NCBI RefSeq assembly: GCF_000522985.1
Contig: NZ_CP007128.1
Location: forward strand, 4,076,220-4,140,219
DNA length: 64,000 nucleotides
From: Gemmatirosa kalamazoonensis
GTDB lineage: Bacteria; Gemmatimonadota; Gemmatimonadetes; Gemmatimonadales; Gemmatimonadaceae
Direction of reading: 5' to 3'
The notes under the pieces: model-generated
Told to the model about the DNA's origin: nothing
Seen by the model: only the letters and a program-made list of their open reading frames with translations
Database searches by the model: none
Part shown: one piece after another, positions 12,064 through 56,605 of the stretch
Position numbering within the stretch: position 1 is the first letter of the stretch
Layout: every line of letters begins with the position of its first letter
Translations under genes and position numbers: made by a program

Positions 12064-13988
12064 GGAGTCGGGGCTGGCAGTTGCGTTAGGCGTCGGGCGG
12101 CGTCGCGGAACTCGATGTCCGCCGTGACGACGCGCTGGAAGCAGGCGCGCGCCGGCTTGTGCTGCCCCAGCCGCGTGTGCGCCTCCCCGAGAAGATAAAC
12201 GACCCCGAGCAGCGCCAGCTCATTCCCGTCGCCGCCGGCCGTCGCCTCGTCGAGCGCACGCTCGAGCACGCCGATGGCCAGCTCCGGCGACCCGCGATCG
12301 AGGAAGCACTGGCCGAGCGCCTCGCGCGCCCGGAGCGCACCCTGCGGCGACCGCGCCGCGCGCTGGAACTCGCCGATCGCCTCCTCAATGAGCCCCATCT
12401 CCCGGAACGCGACGCCGAGGTCGTAGTGGCTGGCGTGGTCGCTCGCGTCGACGTTGCGGGCGAGGCCCGCCTTGAAGACGCCGAGCATGCGCTCGAAGTC
12501 CGCGGCCTCGTCACCGGTCGGCTTGACGTCCTCGGTGGTGATGCGCGTCGAGCGCGCCGGCTCCGCGTCGCGGATCCAGTCGCCGAGGTCGATGAACGAC
12601 TCGGCGCGCGGCACCGGCGTCGCCGCGGGCTGCGGCTCGACGAACGGCTCGGGCTCCGGCTGCTCGGGCTCGACCTGCAGCGTGACGGGCTCCTCCTCGC
12701 ACGCGTCGACCGCCTCGAACGCGTCGACCGCATCGAACGCCAGCGTCTCGGCAGGCATCGGCTCGAACGCGAGCGGCTCGTCCGCCGGCGCGTCGAGCTC
12801 CATCGTGTCGATCTCCAGCGACGTCACGTCGATCTCGGGAATCGCGATCCCGTCGAGCTCGAGCGGCTCGTGGCCGAGCGGCGCGTGGCCGGGCGGCTCA
12901 TCCGCGAGCGGATCCTCGTCGAGCGTCTCGATCGACGGCAGCGCGACGGTCGGCGCCGGCGTGTCCAGCGTCTCGAGACCGTCGAAGGTGTCCAGGCTCT
13001 CGAGCGTGTCGAGGCCGTCCAGCGTGTCGAACGAGGGCGCCGCGTCGGCGACGAGCGCCATGGGCTGCGGCGCCTCGTCGTCGAGGAGCGGCAGCGCACC
13101 GAACGACGGGACGTCCACGTCGTCCTCGACGTCGACCAGCGGTAGCGGGTCGACGCCCCACGAGGGCTCGTCGTCGAGGTCCACGTGCCCCGCGGTCTCC
13201 ACGAGCAGCCCCGGCTCGACCTCGGTGGTGCCCGACGGCGCCGGCTCCGGCTCGAACGGCGGCAGCTCCGCCGACACGGCGGTCAGCTCCAGGCCGGCCA
13301 CGGCGGCGACCGGGGCCGCGATGGAGTCCATCGAGACGTCGAGGAAGACCAGGTCGCGCCCGTTGTCGTCGGACGGCGCCGCCGCGACGACGACGCCGCC
13401 CAGCGGCGTCGGGCTCTTCGCAGCGGCTTCCTCGGCCGGCTCCGGCGCGACGGGGAGCATCGCCTCCAGCTTGGCGCCGATCTCCGTGCCGCGGTTCCCC
13501 TTCGCGAGGTGCCGCGCGAGCGCGGTGCGCGCGTCGTCGTCCGCGGGACACAGCGCGGCGAACTCGGTGAGCGCCTTCAGCGCCTCGTCGTCGCGGCCGG
13601 CGCGGTGCATCCGCTCGGCGTACTCGACGAAGTGGTACTTCGCGTCGCCGCGGAAGCCCTGCTTCGCGTGAAGGACGGCCAGCGTGTAGTGCGTCGGCGC
13701 GTGGTCGGGCGCCTGCCGCAGCAGCTTGTTGGAGACGGCGATGGCGTTGTTCAGCAGCCCGCCGGTCGCGTACGCGTCGATCGCGCGCTCGAAGTACCCC
13801 ACCGCGCGAGCCGAGTCGCCGAGCCGCATGGCGACGTCGCCGGCGCGATTGAACAGCGCCACGTCGACCTCTTCCCCGTCGGCGGCCGCCTCATCGAACA
13901 GCCGGGCGTAGAGCGCGAGCGCCTTGTCGAACTGCCGATCGTGCTCGAGCTGAACCGCCTGCTTGGAGAGCTTCGCGAGGTTGGACAT
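12060..13988 (-). CDS. TPR protein with long acidic low-complexity middle
   Basis: 642 residues, function not recognised. The first 150 residues hold several TPR units (KALALYARLFDEAAADGEEV, LFNRAGDVAMRLGDSARAVG, THYTLAVLHAKQGFRGDAKY). Residues of roughly 210-480 form a strongly acidic, Pro/Leu-rich region with degenerate short repeats such as LDTLESLDTFDGLETLDTPA. The C-terminal 160 residues return to TPR (SHYDLGVAFREMGLIEEAIG, LLGEAHTRLGQHKPARACFQ). The frame is open 40 codons farther up, but the ATG at 13988 overlaps the hutI stop by one base (TGATG) and begins the TPR fold, so it is the likely start. No signal peptide. Two TPR blocks joined by a disordered linker suggest a scaffold. Confidence 0.78.
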   Translation of the reverse strand: MSNLAKLSKQAVQLEHDRQFDKALALYARLFDEAAADGEEVDVALFNRAGDVAMRLGDSARAVGYFERAIDAYATGGLLNNAIAVSNKLLRQAPDHAPTHYTLAVLHAKQGFRGDAKYHFVEYAERMHRAGRDDEALKALTEFAALCPADDDARTALARHLAKGNRGTEIGAKLEAMLPVAPEPAEEAAAKSPTPLGGVVVAAAPSDDNGRDLVFLDVSMDSIAAPVAAVAGLELTAVSAELPPFEPEPAPSGTTEVEPGLLVETAGHVDLDDEPSWGVDPLPLVDVEDDVDVPSFGALPLLDDEAPQPMALVADAAPSFDTLDGLDTLESLDTFDGLETLDTPAPTVALPSIETLDEDPLADEPPGHAPLGHEPLELDGIAIPEIDVTSLEIDTMELDAPADEPLAFEPMPAETLAFDAVDAFEAVDACEEEPVTLQVEPEQPEPEPFVEPQPAATPVPRAESFIDLGDWIRDAEPARSTRITTEDVKPTGDEAADFERMLGVFKAGLARNVDASDHASHYDLGVAFREMGLIEEAIGEFQRAARSPQGALRAREALGQCFLDRGSPELAIGVLERALDEATAGGDGNELALLGVVYLLGEAHTRLGQHKPARACFQRVVTADIEFRDAARRLTQLPAPTP

Positions 13989-15405
13989 CAGCGGGGGGAA
14001 GGCTCCGAGGGGGGACCAGTCCGCTCGTCCTCGGGCGCGAACGCGGCGCAAGCTACCCGTGGCTCGTACGGGTGACAAGCGACGCCGCGCGCCCACGTTC
14101 CCCTGCACAACCGATCGCCGTACCAGTACGGGATCTCGCGCACGTCCTCGGCGTCGAACAGCGCGAGATCGGCGGAGAAGCCGGGCGCGATCTGGCCGAC
14201 CTGGTCGGCGAGACCGAGCGCCGCCGCGCCGTTGACGGTCGCGGCGACGAGCGCCTCGGACGCGTTCAGGCGGAGCTGGCTGACGGCGAGCGTGAGCACG
14301 AGGGGGAAGTTGACGGTCGGACTCGTCCCGGGGTTGAAGTCGGTCGCAAGCGCGACGGCGACGCCGGCCTCCACCAGCGCGCGCGCCGGCGCCTGCCGGG
14401 CACGTCCCAGGAACAGCATCGTTCCCGGGAGGAGGGTCGCCACGGTCCCCGACGCGGCGAGCGCCTGGACGCCCGCCTCGCTCACCGCCGCCAGGTGGTC
14501 GGCGGAGACGGCGCCGAGGGCAGCGGCCAGCTCGGCCCCTCCCGACGGCTCCAGCTCGTCGGCGTGCAGCTTGAGCCCCAACCCGCGGGCGCGGGCGGCC
14601 TCGAGCAGCACGCGGCTCTCCTCCAGCGTATAGACGCCCGGCTCACAGAAAACGTCAGCAAATCGCGCCAGCCCCTCGGCGGCGACCGCGGGCAGCATCG
14701 CCTCGGTGACCAGCCTCACATACTCGGCCCGCCCCCCGTCCCGGGACCGGTACTCGAGCGGGATCTCGTGCGCCCCCAGAAACGTCGGGACGATGCGCAT
14801 CGGCAGCCGCTCGGCCAGGCGGCGGATCACCCGCAGCGTCTTCAGCTCGTCGTCGAGCGACAGGCCGTAGCCGGACTTCACCTCCACGGTGGTCGTGCCG
14901 TACGAGGCGAGGCGCTCGAGCCGCGGCCGGGCGAGCGCGAACAGGTCGTCCTCGGAGCGACCGCGGAGGTCGCGCACGGAGCTGTGGATGCCGCCGCCGC
15001 GCCGGGCGATCTCCTGGTACGGCACGCCGGTGGCGCGCAGCTCCTGCTCCTCGTAGCGCGCGCGCGTCCGAAGATGGCGTGCGTGTGCGAGTCGACGAGT
15101 CCGGGCGTGAGCAGCCGGCCGCCGCAGTCGATGACGTGGGCGTCGGGATGCAGGCGACGCAGCTCGCCGTCGGGCGCGACCGCGGCGATGCGCTCTCCGA
15201 CGACGGCGACGCCGACGCCCTGCCTGACGCCGGCGTCGGACAGCTCAACGCCGCGGCGGGCGCGCGCGGGGCCCGCGCAGGTCGCGAGCTGTCCGACGTT
15301 CAGGAACAGCGTCTCACGCGGAGACGCGGAGACCGCGGAGAACTGCCCATCGCTTTGGGATTGCTCCGCGTTCTCCGCGTCTCCGCGTGAGACGGAATCG
15401 CTCAT
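13988..15405 (-). CDS. hutI: imidazolonepropionase HutI, apparently frameshifted
   Basis: Third step of histidine degradation, hydrolysing imidazolone-5-propionate to formiminoglutamate. The protein is encoded in two frames. The N-terminal frame (15405 to about 15058) carries NVGQLATCAG and the metal-binding PGLVDSHTHAIFGRAR. The C-terminal frame (about 15057 to 13988) continues with YEEQELRATGVPYQEIARRG, then KSGYGLSLDDELK, LHADELEPSGG and ATDFNPGTSP. The break is in a CG dinucleotide run of 11 bases near 15056-15066, where removing two bases (or adding one) restores one frame. Starting only in the second frame would lose the HTH zinc ligands. The ATG at 15405 overlaps the radical SAM stop (ATGA) and places a palindromic repeat in frame as residues 4-32. 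It could be a sequencing error, a pseudogene or a slippage site. Confidence 0.8.
15310..15394. repeat. palindromic element, unit ACGCGGAG, read in frame in hutI
   Basis: Two 31-base arms (15310-15340 and 15364-15394) are inverted copies with one mismatch, around a 23-base centre. Each arm is built from near-tandem copies of ACGCGGAG. The right arm ends seven bases past the stop codon of the radical SAM gene. Read on the minus strand it contributes about 29 residues (SVSRGDAENAEQ onward) between the HutI start codon and the first conserved HutI residues LFLNVGQL. Confidence 0.9.
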
Positions 15406-16388
15406 CTCGCCGCCGTCCCCATGACATCGGCGACGCGCGACGCGATGCGGATGGGGGCCTGCGCCTCGCCGCGGCACGCGTAGTAGCACGCGTTGCAGTC
15501 GATCGGCTCGTACGTGCGGTAGTCCGACCAGTGGAAGTCGGTCGGGAAGTCGGGGCAGCGCCGGACGTGGCCCGTGGGGCTGATGTGGATCGTGTCGCGT
15601 CCGCTGCGGCACGGCTCGGTCATCTCGCCGCGCAGGTAGCGCGGGATCTGCTCGAGGTAGTAGTCCGAGTTCGTGATCACGCCACGCCGCCGCCGCTTGA
15701 ACGCGAGCAGCTCGTCGACGACCGCCTGTACCTCGGCCAGCTGCTCGCCGCGCACGAGATGCGCGCGGTTGCCGTTCTTGCTGTCGGTGTAGACGCTGAA
15801 GTTCACGCCGCACCCCACCGACTCCGCGCGCCGCACGATCGGCAGGATCTGATCGAGGTTGTCGTCCTTGATGACCGTGTTGAAGCGCACGTTGTCGATG
15901 CCGCGCGCGCGCATGGCCGGCACGGTGCGGAAGATCTTCTCCACGAGCCCCGGGATGCCGCGCGCGCGGTCGTGACGCTCGTCGAGGTAGTCGAGCGAGA
16001 TGTTGAACTGATTGATGCCCGCGTCCCACAGCGACGTCGCCCGCTCGGGGGTGAGCATCCCGCCGTGCGTGATGAGCGTGACGTACTTCAGCCGCACCGC
16101 GCGGTCGACCGCGGCCACGAGATCCTCGAGGTCGCGCCGCAGCAGCGGCTCGCCCCCGGTGAACGTGACGAGCATCGGATCGAAGTGGCGCGCCGCGTCG
16201 GCGAAGCTCTTCAGCTCATCGGCCTTCGCGGACGCGTCGGTCTTCCAGTAGTCGCAGAATCCGCAGCGCGCGTTGCAGCGCAGCGTGACCTCGAAGTGCA
16301 CGAGCACGGGACGCTTGCGCGCCTTGAGCCACGCGTACTTCGCGAGGAAGAGCGGAACGTGGTACGGCTTGAACTTCGCTGAGAGCAT
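15402..16388 (-). CDS. radical SAM protein in the hut operon
   Basis: Radical SAM enzyme of unknown substrate. The 328 residues carry the cluster motif CNARCGFC (CxxxCxxC) near residue 40, followed by TFTGGEPLLRRD (SAM contact). A C-terminal Cys-rich tail is present (CRSGRD, RRCPDFP, CNACYYACRG), which resembles SPASM/twitch auxiliary-cluster regions. I chose the ATG at 16388 (MLSAKFKPYHVPLF); ten further codons are open upstream but run into the palindromic repeat. The stop overlaps the hutI ATG (ATGA). Radical SAM enzymes are not part of the standard histidine pathway, so its position between hutU and hutI is unexplained; peptide or cofactor modification is possible but not shown. Confidence 0.82.
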   Translation of the reverse strand: MLSAKFKPYHVPLFLAKYAWLKARKRPVLVHFEVTLRCNARCGFCDYWKTDASAKADELKSFADAARHFDPMLVTFTGGEPLLRRDLEDLVAAVDRAVRLKYVTLITHGGMLTPERATSLWDAGINQFNISLDYLDERHDRARGIPGLVEKIFRTVPAMRARGIDNVRFNTVIKDDNLDQILPIVRRAESVGCGVNFSVYTDSKNGNRAHLVRGEQLAEVQAVVDELLAFKRRRRGVITNSDYYLEQIPRYLRGEMTEPCRSGRDTIHISPTGHVRRCPDFPTDFHWSDYRTYEPIDCNACYYACRGEAQAPIRIASRVADVMGTAAR

Positions 16389-16399
16389 CGGACTCCGAC

Positions 16400-16470
16400 G
16401 CTCCGCGCTCCGCTCCACACTCCACGCTCGGGTCGAGTCAGCGTGGAGCGTGGAGCGTGGAGCGTGGAGC
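16400..16470. repeat. palindromic element, unit GCGTGGA, directly after hutU
   Basis: The right arm (16440-16470) is four tandem GCGTGGA heptamers. The left arm (16400-16428) is an inverted, degenerate copy; the inner 17 bases pair with one mismatch across an 11-base loop. The outer edge overlaps the last base of the hutU stop codon. The 17-mer AGCGTGGAGCGTGGAGC at 16440-16456 is also present at 56532-56548 after rpsD. Confidence 0.88.
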
Positions 16471-18176
16471 TAACGCGTCATGGGAAGTGTGATTCCGTTT
16501 CGCCGAGCCGTCTCGATGGCGCTCTCGTAGCCCGCGTCCGCGTGGCGCGCGACGCCGATGCCGGGGTCGTTCGTGAGCACGCGCTCCAGGCGCGCACGCA
16601 TGCGCGGCGTCCCGTCGGCGACGATCACCTGCCCCGCGTGCAGCGAGTTGCCGATGCCGACGCCGCCGCCGTGATGGAACGACACCCACGACGCGCCGCT
16701 CGCGGTGTTCAGCAGCGCGTTCAGCACGGCCCAGTCGGCGATCGCATCGGAGCCGTCCTTCATCCCCTCGGTCTCGCGGAACGGCGACGCGACGCTCCCC
16801 GTGTCGAGGTGGTCGCGGCCGATGACGATGGGGCCGATCTCCCCGCGCGCGACGAGGTCGTTCAGCGCGACGCCGAACTTCGCGCGGTCGCCCTGCCCCA
16901 GCCAGCAGATGCGTGCCGGCAGGCCCTGGAACTGGATGCGCTCGCGCGCGAGCGTGATCCACCGCTTCAGCGCCGCGTCGTGCGGGAACAGCTCCAGCAC
17001 CAGCTCGTCGGTGCGCGCGATGTCGCGCGCATCGCCCGACAGCGCGACCCAGCGGAACGGCCCCTTCCCCTCGCAGAACAGCGGACGCACGTACGCCGGC
17101 ACGAAGCCGGGGATGTCGAACGCGCGCGCGACGCCGGCGTCGAACGCGACGGTGCGGATGTTGTTGCCGTAGTCGAACGCGACCGCGCCGCGCCGCTGCA
17201 TCTCCAGCATCGCCTCGACGTGCCGCGCCGCGGCCGCGGTGGAGCGCCGCACGTACGCCGCCGGATCCTCGGCGCGCAGCACGGCCGCGTCGGCGAGCGA
17301 CATGCCATCGGGCACGTAGCCCTGCAGCATGTCGTGCGCGCTCGTCTGGTCGGTGACGACGTCGGGCGTGACGCCGCGGCGCACGAGCTCGGGCAACACC
17401 GTCGCCGCGTTCCCGATGAGCGCCACCGACAGCGCCTCGCCCGCGCGCTGCGCGGCGCCGAGCCAGCCTAACGCCTCGTCGAGGTCGTGCGTCTTGCGGT
17501 CGCAGTAGCGCGTGGCGAGCCGCTTGTCGGCGCGTGCCTCGTCCACCTCGACGGCGAGGATCGCGGCGCCGTTCATCGTCGCCGCGAGCGGCTGCGCGCC
17601 GCCCATGCCGCCGAGCCCCGCGGTGACCACGAGGCGGCCGGCGAGCGAGCCGCCGAAGTGCTGTCGAGCGACGGCGGCGAACGTCTCGTACGTGCCCTGC
17701 ACGATGCCCTGCGAGCCGATGTAGATCCACGAGCCCGCGGTCATCTGCCCGTACATCGTGAGGCCTAACGCCTCCAGGCGGCGGAACTCGTCCCACGTCG
17801 CGAAGCGCGGCACGAGGTTGGAGTTCGCGAGGATGACGCGCGGCGCCTGGTCGTGCGTGCGGAACACCGCGACCGGCTTGCCACTCTGCACGACGAGCGT
17901 CTCGTCGTCGCCCAACGACTTCAGCGCGTCGACGATCGCGTCGAACGCGGCCCAGCTCCGCGCCGCGCGTCCGGTGCCGCCGTAGACCACGAGGTCGTCC
18001 GGCCGCTCGGCGACGTCGGGGTCGAGGTTGTTCATGAGCATGCGCATCGCCGCCTCCTGCTCCCAACCGCGGCACGAGAGCGTGGTGCCGCGCGGCGCGC
18101 GGACGAGGCGCGGGCCCGACGCCGGCGCGGACGCGCGGTCGGTCGCGGGTGTCGAGGTCGGGGCGACGGTCGTCAC
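16470..18176 (-). CDS. hutU: urocanate hydratase
   Basis: Second step of histidine degradation, adding water to urocanate to give imidazolonepropionate with tightly bound NAD as electrophile. The 568 residues show the family start [20 protein letters not shown] and [11 protein letters not shown]. The NAD-binding [18 protein letters not shown] is near 190-207 and the catalytic-Cys segment [20 protein letters not shown] near 362-381. The C-terminal [15 protein letters not shown] is also intact. Length matches the family (about 550-560) plus a short Thr/Pro-rich N-terminus. The GTG start overlaps the hutH stop by 4 bases. The stop codon abuts a palindromic repeat. Confidence 0.97.
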
Positions 18177-19708
18177 GAGGTCACCTCCTGCGCAGCGATG
18201 CGCGGCGTGAACGCGTCCGCCGCGATGCCGCCGGCGAGCGCCTCGATGTCGGGAGAGAGCACGCGGTCCTCGGCGAGCCGCGGCACGCGCGCGCGCACGG
18301 CGGCGTGCGCGGCACGGAGCGCGGCGGCGGGGCGCAGCGGCGCGCGCAGGTCGATGCCCTGTGCCGCGCACATGAGCTCCACGGCGAGCACGCGCCGGAC
18401 GTTCGCGACGATGCGCCGCAGCTTCACCGCGGCACCCATCGCCATGGGCACCACGTCCTCCTTGTTGCCGTCGGTCGGGATGGTGTCCACGCTCGCCGGA
18501 TGCGACAGCACCTTGCACTCGCTGGCGAGCGCCGCGGCGGTGACCTGCGCGATCATGAACCCCGAGTGCACGCCGGGATCCGACGCGAGGAATGCGGGAA
18601 GCCCATAGTTGAAGTCGGGGTGCACGACGCGGTCGATGCGCCGCTCCGACATCGTCGCCAGGTTCGTGAGCGCGATCGACATGACGTCGCACGCCATCGC
18701 GACCGCCTGGCCGTGGAAGTTGCCGCCGCTCAGCATCGCGCCGTCGTCGAACACGAGCGGATTGTCGGTGGCGGCGTTCAGCTCGCGCGCGACGAGATCC
18801 TCGGCGAACCGCAGCGCGTCGCGCACGGGACCGTGCACCTGCGGCATGCAGCGGAGCGCATAGGCGTCCTGCACGCGCGGATCGCCGTGCCGGTGCGCCT
18901 CGCGGATCTCGCTGTCCTCGAGCAGCGCGCGCAGGAGCGCGGCGCTCTCGCACTGACCGCGCTGCCCACGCACGTCGTGGATGCGCGCGTCGAACGCGAC
19001 GGGCGTGCCCATGAGCGCCTCGAGGCTCATCGCGCCGGCGACGTGCGCCGTCGTCCACAGCTGCAGCGCGTCGTGCAGCGCGAGCGCAGCGACCGCGGTG
19101 TGCGCCTGCGTGCCGTTGATGAGCGCGATCCCTTCCTTCGGCTGGAGCACCGCGGGCTCGAGCCCCGCGGCGCGCAGCGCGTCGGCCGCCGGCCGCTCGC
19201 CGTCGGGCGTGACGAGCGTGCCCTCGCCGATCAGCGACAGAGCGAGGTGCGCCAGCGGTGCCAGGTCGCCGCTCGCGCCGACGCTTCCCTGCTCCGGCAC
19301 CGGCGGATACAGGAAGTCGTTCAGCATGCCCGCCAGCAGCTCGGCGAGCGCCGGCCGCGCGCCGGACAGACCGCGCGCGAGCACGTTGGCGCGCAGCAGC
19401 ATCATCGCGCGCACCTCGCGCTCCGGCAGCCGCGCACCGACGCCGGCCGCGTGGCTGCGCACGAGGTTGCGCTGCAGCTCGAGCAGCCGCGCAGGCGGGA
19501 TCGCGACCTCCGACAGCTTGCCGAAGCCGGTCGTGACGCCGTACACGACCTCGTTGCGCGCGACGACGCCGTCGACGACGGCGCGCGACCGCCGCATCCG
19601 CTCCGCCGCCTCCGGCGCGAGCCGCACCGTCGCCGCGCCGTCCGCCACCGCGCGCACCGCGTCGAGCGTGAGCGACGTCCCATCGATGTCGACCTGCGAA
19701 CCCGTCAT
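18173..19708 (-). CDS. hutH: histidine ammonia-lyase
   Basis: First step of histidine degradation: eliminates ammonia from L-histidine to give urocanate. The 511 residues contain the Ala-Ser-Gly triad that cyclises into the MIO cofactor, in [15 protein letters not shown] near 138-152. The Tyr loop [12 protein letters not shown] is near 55, and [15 protein letters not shown] and [14 protein letters not shown]-type segments follow. The ATG at 19708 gives the usual length; an in-frame start 14 codons earlier is possible but adds non-conserved residues. It is first in the order hutH-hutU-radical SAM-hutI. No HutC or HutP regulator, hutF or hutG is in the window, so the route after HutI and its control are unknown here. 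Confidence 0.97.
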
Positions 19709-19776
19709 TGGGACAATGATCGACAGGGGGCGCGCGGGGAGCAAGGCCACTCCGCTCTCCGTCGCGCCGTCCTGGA

Positions 19777-19911
19777 CTCCACGTACGTGGTGTGGTGGGA
19801 CTGAAGGAGGACTGAAGAGGGACTGAAGAAGGAGACACCAACGAGAAGGGTTGGTCCTTCTTCAGTCCTCCTTCAGTCCTTCTTCAGTCCTCCAGAAACA
19901 CGTACGTGGAG
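19777..19911. repeat. long palindromic element, unit GGACTGAAGRAG, after lptD
   Basis: The base is a perfect 13-bp inverted repeat (CTCCACGTACGTG at 19777-19789, CACGTACGTGGAG at 19899-19911). Inside, 36-base arms each hold three near-tandem copies of a 12-base unit GGACTGAAGRAG and match at 33 of 36 positions. The total is about 135 bases in the 219-base gap between lptD and hutH. Its outer edge is 16 bases after the lptD stop. It lies upstream of hutH, so it could end lptD transcription or affect hutH expression. Confidence 0.92.
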
Positions 19912-56426: not shown

Positions 56427-56531
56427 TGCGTTAGTCAGTCCTCATTGGTCACGCCCTTTCGGGCGACGCCCTGCCCCGCCCTTCACGCGCGGCAGGCCCG
56501 TACGGGAGTGAAGGTCCCGACCCGTATCCCC

Positions 56532-56598
56532 AGCGTGGAGCGTGGAGCGTTGAGCGCCGAGTGAGTTCCTCAACGCTCTCCGCTCCACGCTCCACGCT
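56532..56598. repeat. palindromic element between rpsD and rpoA, unit GCGTGGA
   Basis: A perfect 17-base inverted repeat AGCGTGGAGCGTGGAGC (56532-56548) / GCTCCACGCTCCACGCT (56582-56598) surrounds an imperfect inner GTTGAG/CTCAAC pair. The outer edge is seven bases past the rpsD stop. The 17-mer is the same sequence found after hutU (16440-16456). The rest of the 179-base gap contains a small CGCCC/GGGCG hairpin near 56450-56467. Confidence 0.92.
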
Positions 56599-56605
56599 CG
56601 GCTTG

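Follow-up and report, generated by a model that had tools for sequence, protein, structure and literature searches.

A palindrome in the hutI reading frame

In the 64,000-nucleotide stretch of the Gemmatirosa kalamazoonensis genome analysed here (NZ_CP007128.1, positions 4,076,220 to 4,140,219; called the window, whose coordinates are used throughout), a palindromic repeat lies between the start codon of hutI and the first conserved residues of HutI, and the frame stays open across it. The genes are ordered on the minus strand as hutU (16470-19841; this assignment of the open reading frame (ORF) is our own reading), a radical-SAM protein gene and hutI. The features at the junction are as follows.

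15402-16418, minus strand: radical-SAM protein gene, directly upstream of hutI, with the same placement in the relatives that carry palindromes
15403-15405, minus strand: hutI ATG, overlapping the radical-SAM TGA stop as ATGA
15310-15394, minus strand: palindromic element, family arm TCTCACGCGGAG(n)CGCGGAG(n)ACGCGGAG, occupying in-frame hutI codons about 5-32
15310-15347: one palindrome arm, 38 nt, from inverted-repeat detection
15357-15394: the other palindrome arm, 38 nt, from inverted-repeat detection
15067-15405, minus strand: hutI 5' piece, comprising the element-encoded N-terminus and the conserved LFLNVGQL...SHTHAIFG (TIGR01224 positions 6-56)
15056-15066, minus strand: CGCGCGCGCGC run containing the hutI frame break, two nucleotides longer than the CGCGCGCGC of L198 and other relatives
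13988-15055, minus strand: 3' piece of hutI, out of frame with the 5' piece (TIGR01224 positions 55-371, 368.9 bits)

The element is 85 bp long and a near-perfect palindrome, with 38-nt arms that are 89% complementary and a 9-nt loop, and its RNA folds at -93.8 kcal/mol against -63.6 +/- 4.3 for shuffled sequences (z = -7). From the ATG at 15405 the frame reads MSDSVSRGDAENAEQSQSDGQFSAVSASPRETLFLNVGQLATC...SHTHAIFGRAR, passing without interruption through the palindrome into LFLNVGQLATC, as the initial annotation of this DNA had described. That annotation had also remarked that no ATG, GTG or TTG separates the element from the conserved start, and inspection of the frame agrees: beyond codon 1 all three are absent, CTG being present at 15309 and 15303. 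An Rfam scan of the element gave nothing above threshold, and the sub-threshold matches to mir-B6 were dismissed as chance hairpins. The element had no match in the plasmid collection, and a literature search on the arm sequences returned no relevant paper. The C-terminal part of the radical-SAM protein also lies immediately 5' of hutI at L162, L164 and L167.

Palindromes at the same junction in relatives

At 82 HutI loci a median of 6 codons separates the first conserved residue (LF) from the start codon nearest to it. The 80 orthologues generally begin at about that distance from LF, and most of them lack the additional residues. The initial annotation had placed a natural MSD start on one side of the insert and LF on the other, which is borne out by genome G014, whose HutI begins MSDTAPAT-LFVN, with the MSD start of the window and without the insert. 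Relative to G014 the window is longer by 24 codons, though the element measures 85 bp; some target sequence may thus have been lost on insertion, which is only suggestive at the distance of G014.

Three relatives with an intact hutI carry palindromes of other families at the same site, also in frame. In G015 a GTG overlapping the radical-SAM stop is followed by VSVERRASSVEG...LDARRSTLLFTNA; the N-terminus in Roseisolibacter sp. H3M3-2 is VSGERRAGSVG...LDARRSTLLFVGA, and that in the metagenome-assembled genome (MAG) b76 is VTGRETGDGRRETE...PSPVSRLLFINA. The inverted repeats were computed for b76 and H3M3-2 and read from the sequence for G015. The distance from start to LF is 108 nt in G015, 75 in H3M3-2, 123 in b76 and 96 in the window, every one a multiple of three. 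The relatives start with GTGA and the window with ATGA, so that all four genomes share an RTGA overlap with the upstream stop, and none of the three relatives has an alternative start ahead of the conserved region. The repeats differ between lineages, each of the relatives' palindromes belonging to a family that is abundant in its own genome: relaxed searches for GAGCGTC-type arms gave 135 hits in G015, 246 in H3M3-2 and 19 in Gemmatirosa, and GACGGGA-type arms gave 56 hits in b76 and none in the other genomes tested.

On the HutI tree the window, G015 and H3M3-2 form one clade (Shimodaira-Hasegawa-like approximate likelihood ratio test (SH-aLRT) support 89, not a starred branch), and b76 stands apart. 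The palindrome label needs two changes on this tree, and the starred branches alone force only one. Two gains are therefore likely rather than proven, overwriting inside the first clade being possible. Because palindromes of other families sit in frame at the hutI junction, including one outside the window's clade, recurrent in-frame capture at this junction appears well supported by the sequence comparison.

A frame break downstream of the element

The initial annotation overlooked that hutI goes out of frame downstream of about 15066, where the N-terminal piece in frame -0 gives way to the C-terminal piece in frame -1. The break is private to the window and follows SHTHAIFGRAR, a point at which the orthologues keep their frame. 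Coding sequence in the window amounts to 60.7 kb and contains no other frame break, as compared with ten candidates in 484 kb of other coding sequence. No second copy of hutI was found in the genome (7,479,215 bp in four contigs, the largest 5,311,527 bp), so the gene is single-copy. The 3' piece is stop-free and its branch on the HutI tree is of unremarkable length, which makes the break either a recent change of two bases or a fault of the assembly, built from PacBio reads alone, and in both cases independent of the element.

That hutI is intact in the living strain, the assembly having gained a GC dinucleotide in the CGCGCGCGCGC run, is in our judgement an even bet. The published assembly of strain KBS708 used PacBio RS reads with Quiver only (PMC3974934), and the solitary nature of the break, the in-frame orthologues at the CG run and the continued conservation of the downstream piece all point to an artefact; against it stand the reported coverage of 118x and the plausibility of a real mutation, the run being of a kind in which two bases may slip.

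The repeat family in Gemmatirosa

The 12-mer TCTCACGCGGAG occurs 107 times in the genome and its reversed control not at all, so the family is not a chance match. We recovered 81 loci with paired arms, to which a covariance model added about ten, bringing the family to about 90 copies. Simple copies are mostly 78-84 bp long (range 75-91 bp) and have three 8-9-nt repeats per arm, and many loci are larger composites that contain other palindromes. In composites of about 120-340 bp (L070, L072, L087, L118 and similar), other families (CGCAGAGG units, GGGGATGAAAGGATCC types) are nested in the loop between the ACGCGGAG arms. The arms covary: 49 cells have two-sided changes against 28.7 in shuffles, and 0 of 500 shuffles came as high. 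Kinship alone may lift sequences above shuffles, but slid controls were also far lower. At column pair 17/83, for example, the copies have AU 14 times, CG 14 times and GC 9 times.

By our own codon-usage predictor, rather than curated genes, 57 copies lie between tandem genes, 18 between convergent and 5 between divergent ones, and the stop of the upstream gene precedes the element at 59 of the 68 scored gene-element junctions. Almost all other copies are extragenic, only 2 of about 90 being intragenic. At L096, L121 and L148 the element seems to lengthen the C-terminus of the upstream gene, the stop falling 14-35 nt past it. Elements are open in 3.8 of 6 frames and random 81-mers of this GC-rich genome in 4.6 of 6; the open frame in hutI is therefore not a designed property of the element. 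At no boundary offset were direct repeats clearly more frequent than in shuffled pairs, as they would be with a target-site duplication, and the flanks show only a weak consensus (C then G beside the element end, G at +8). CGTC ends are absent from 47 of the 81 copies, present at one end in 31 and at both ends in 3. With its many copies, its extragenic placement in tandem or convergent contexts and its stable hairpin with compensatory changes, the element is a REP-like (repetitive extragenic palindromic) sequence in the broad sense.

The second intragenic copy, 78 bp long and also in frame, is at L080, inside an ORF of 1142 aa with APH, M23 peptidase and class-III aminotransferase domains. All 22 aligned orthologues of this protein have 8-9 residues where L080 has about 27 encoded by the element (residues 78-104 by our count), and the simplest reading would be an insertion that removed about 24 nt of the target. 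In the predicted fold the region has a mean predicted local distance difference test (pLDDT) score of 89; only residues 86-98 fall under 50, all within the insert, which lies in a loop of the protein. L069, L071, L118, L123 and L157 were considered as further in-frame copies and dropped, since a start codon falls after or within the element or the coding frame is unconvincing.

Other repeats share this genome. The window also contains, at 56529-56601 and about 16443-16473, palindromes of a second family with unit GAGCGTG (CTCCACGCTCCACGC), whose 16-mer has 219 occurrences in the genome. A 986-kb stretch (G000:C2:2874155-3860054) holds no listed copy of the ACGCGGAG family, whose copies occupy 80 chromosome positions; 0 of 20,000 random placements left so large a gap, and the GAGCGTG family is present there. 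Similar elements are patchy in other Gemmatimonadota families (G192, G071, G102), 15 of 200 sampled genomes matching, the window's own included.

Discussion

We propose, with a probability of roughly 0.7, that one copy of a proliferating family landed just after the hutI start and is read in frame as an N-terminal extension, with parallels in relatives. The element would be a copy of a non-autonomous Gemmatirosa palindrome that normally settles between genes, and this copy would have landed in the tight radical-SAM/hutI junction, just 3' of the start codon. As the hutI start overlaps the stop codon of the gene before it, an insert there would be tolerated only if open and a multiple of three. 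Translation, presumably starting at 15405 and coupled from the upstream gene, would run through the hairpin and place about 28 residues, probably disordered, ahead of the first conserved HutI strand. The same junction would have taken up palindromes of other families in relatives, at least one further time and probably two times or more.

Several points weigh against this proposal. The assembled hutI encodes no full HutI, and with its frame interrupted a fused protein may not be present in this genome's host at all. Beginning some 12 nt past the start codon, a hairpin of about -68 kcal/mol (the family median) should hinder initiation, and the CTG at 15309 is a possible initiation codon. Nor was a mobiliser found: for the REP-associated tyrosine transposase (RAYT)/Y1 type, Y1_Tnp (PF01797) had no match in the genome, the control genomes being positive and other transposases not surveyed. 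The initial annotation had argued that translation must pass through the element if hutI is made. Since three relatives with an intact hutI carry different in-frame palindromes at the same place, such read-through is credible, but with the frame broken the claim does not extend to a single HutI protein in this assembly.

Those difficulties could mean that the palindrome is effectively extragenic, hutI being dead or dying here or starting at a CTG beyond the element, and its open frame luck. The broken, single-copy gene and the CTG at 15309 fit this, random 81-mers are open more often than the elements are, and it has been cautioned that many N-terminal REPs may be non-coding (PMC3733652). We think it unlikely, as three intact-hutI genomes hold palindromes of three lengths, all in frame and with no alternative start before the conserved region, and the C-terminal piece is stop-free with an unremarkable branch length. 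Less probable still is that the hairpin is kept as a control element throttling coupled hutI translation, with the peptide as a by-product. The great stability of the hairpin, its place at codon 5, the RTGA coupling and the occurrence of palindromes at this site in four genomes would suit such a role, but copies lie beside many unrelated genes, mostly tandem or convergent, as befits generic extragenic repeats.

A stronger competitor, which we nonetheless hold at somewhat under even odds, dates the extension to the ancestor of the Gemmatirosa-Roseisolibacter clade, with a single early in-frame insertion later overwritten by the active family of each genus. All three members of that clade are extended, and composites with nested palindromes are common in the family; on the other side, the arm families and the boundaries differ, and b76 falls elsewhere on the tree, adding a second change that the starred branches do not force. 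The initial annotation had named inheritance of the same residues by orthologues as evidence against an insertion. The nearest clade, Roseisolibacter, has a palindrome of a different family, but it too has an in-frame extension, so shared descent is only partly countered. Returning to recurrent insertion, a bolder version sees in the radical-SAM/hutI junction a place where palindromes land repeatedly, each lineage capturing the family active in it, in frame and near the start of hutI; the N-terminal extensions would be unrelated in sequence and would also carry a hairpin that tunes coupled translation. We regard this as doubtful.

The phenomenon belongs to a known kind, here in Gemmatimonadota. 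Rickettsia palindromic elements are genome-wide repeats found in frame inside protein genes and compatible with the protein fold (PMC10969869). The initial annotation had drawn this parallel, which survives as a functional likeness only, in genome-wide palindromic repeats and in-frame reading. The Gemmatirosa element, of 85 bp and with ACGCGGAG units, belongs to a family that is less open than random DNA and is intragenic in only 2 of about 90 copies, so that protein-coding insertion is exceptional here and the frequent presence inside ORFs seen in Rickettsia was not found. Another parallel is offered by the intragenic REPs of the GTAG and CGTC super-families (Di Nocera et al. 2013), which are mostly extragenic in tandem or convergent contexts, with some in frame and many of these N-terminal, and for which Xanthomonas recB is a precedent for same-site REPs (PMC3733652). 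The present family shares the context, the N-terminal in-frame reading and the same-site cases, but its members are about 80 bp long with three 8-9-nt repeats per arm, not stem-loops of 20-40 bp with an unpaired CGTC tag at one end, and the genome has no IS200-type Y1 transposase as GTAG REP/RAYT systems do. Miniature inverted-repeat transposable elements (MITEs) of the ERIC, RUP and NEMIS type are likewise short, non-autonomous inverted repeats in many copies that can fuse to ORFs, but the element here is palindromic nearly end to end and neither a target-site duplication nor a parent insertion sequence was found. What is distinct in this case is the size with iterated arms, the absence of a Y1 transposase and the use of one landing site by lineage-specific families.

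In-frame palindromes in proteins have so far been seen mainly in Rickettsia and in scattered intragenic REPs. Here, different lineage-specific repeats stand in frame at one gene junction across several soil bacteria, which makes it testable whether repeats turn into protein through frame selection at overlapping start-stop junctions, and with what effect on expression. Annotated N-termini in these genomes can thus derive from repeats.
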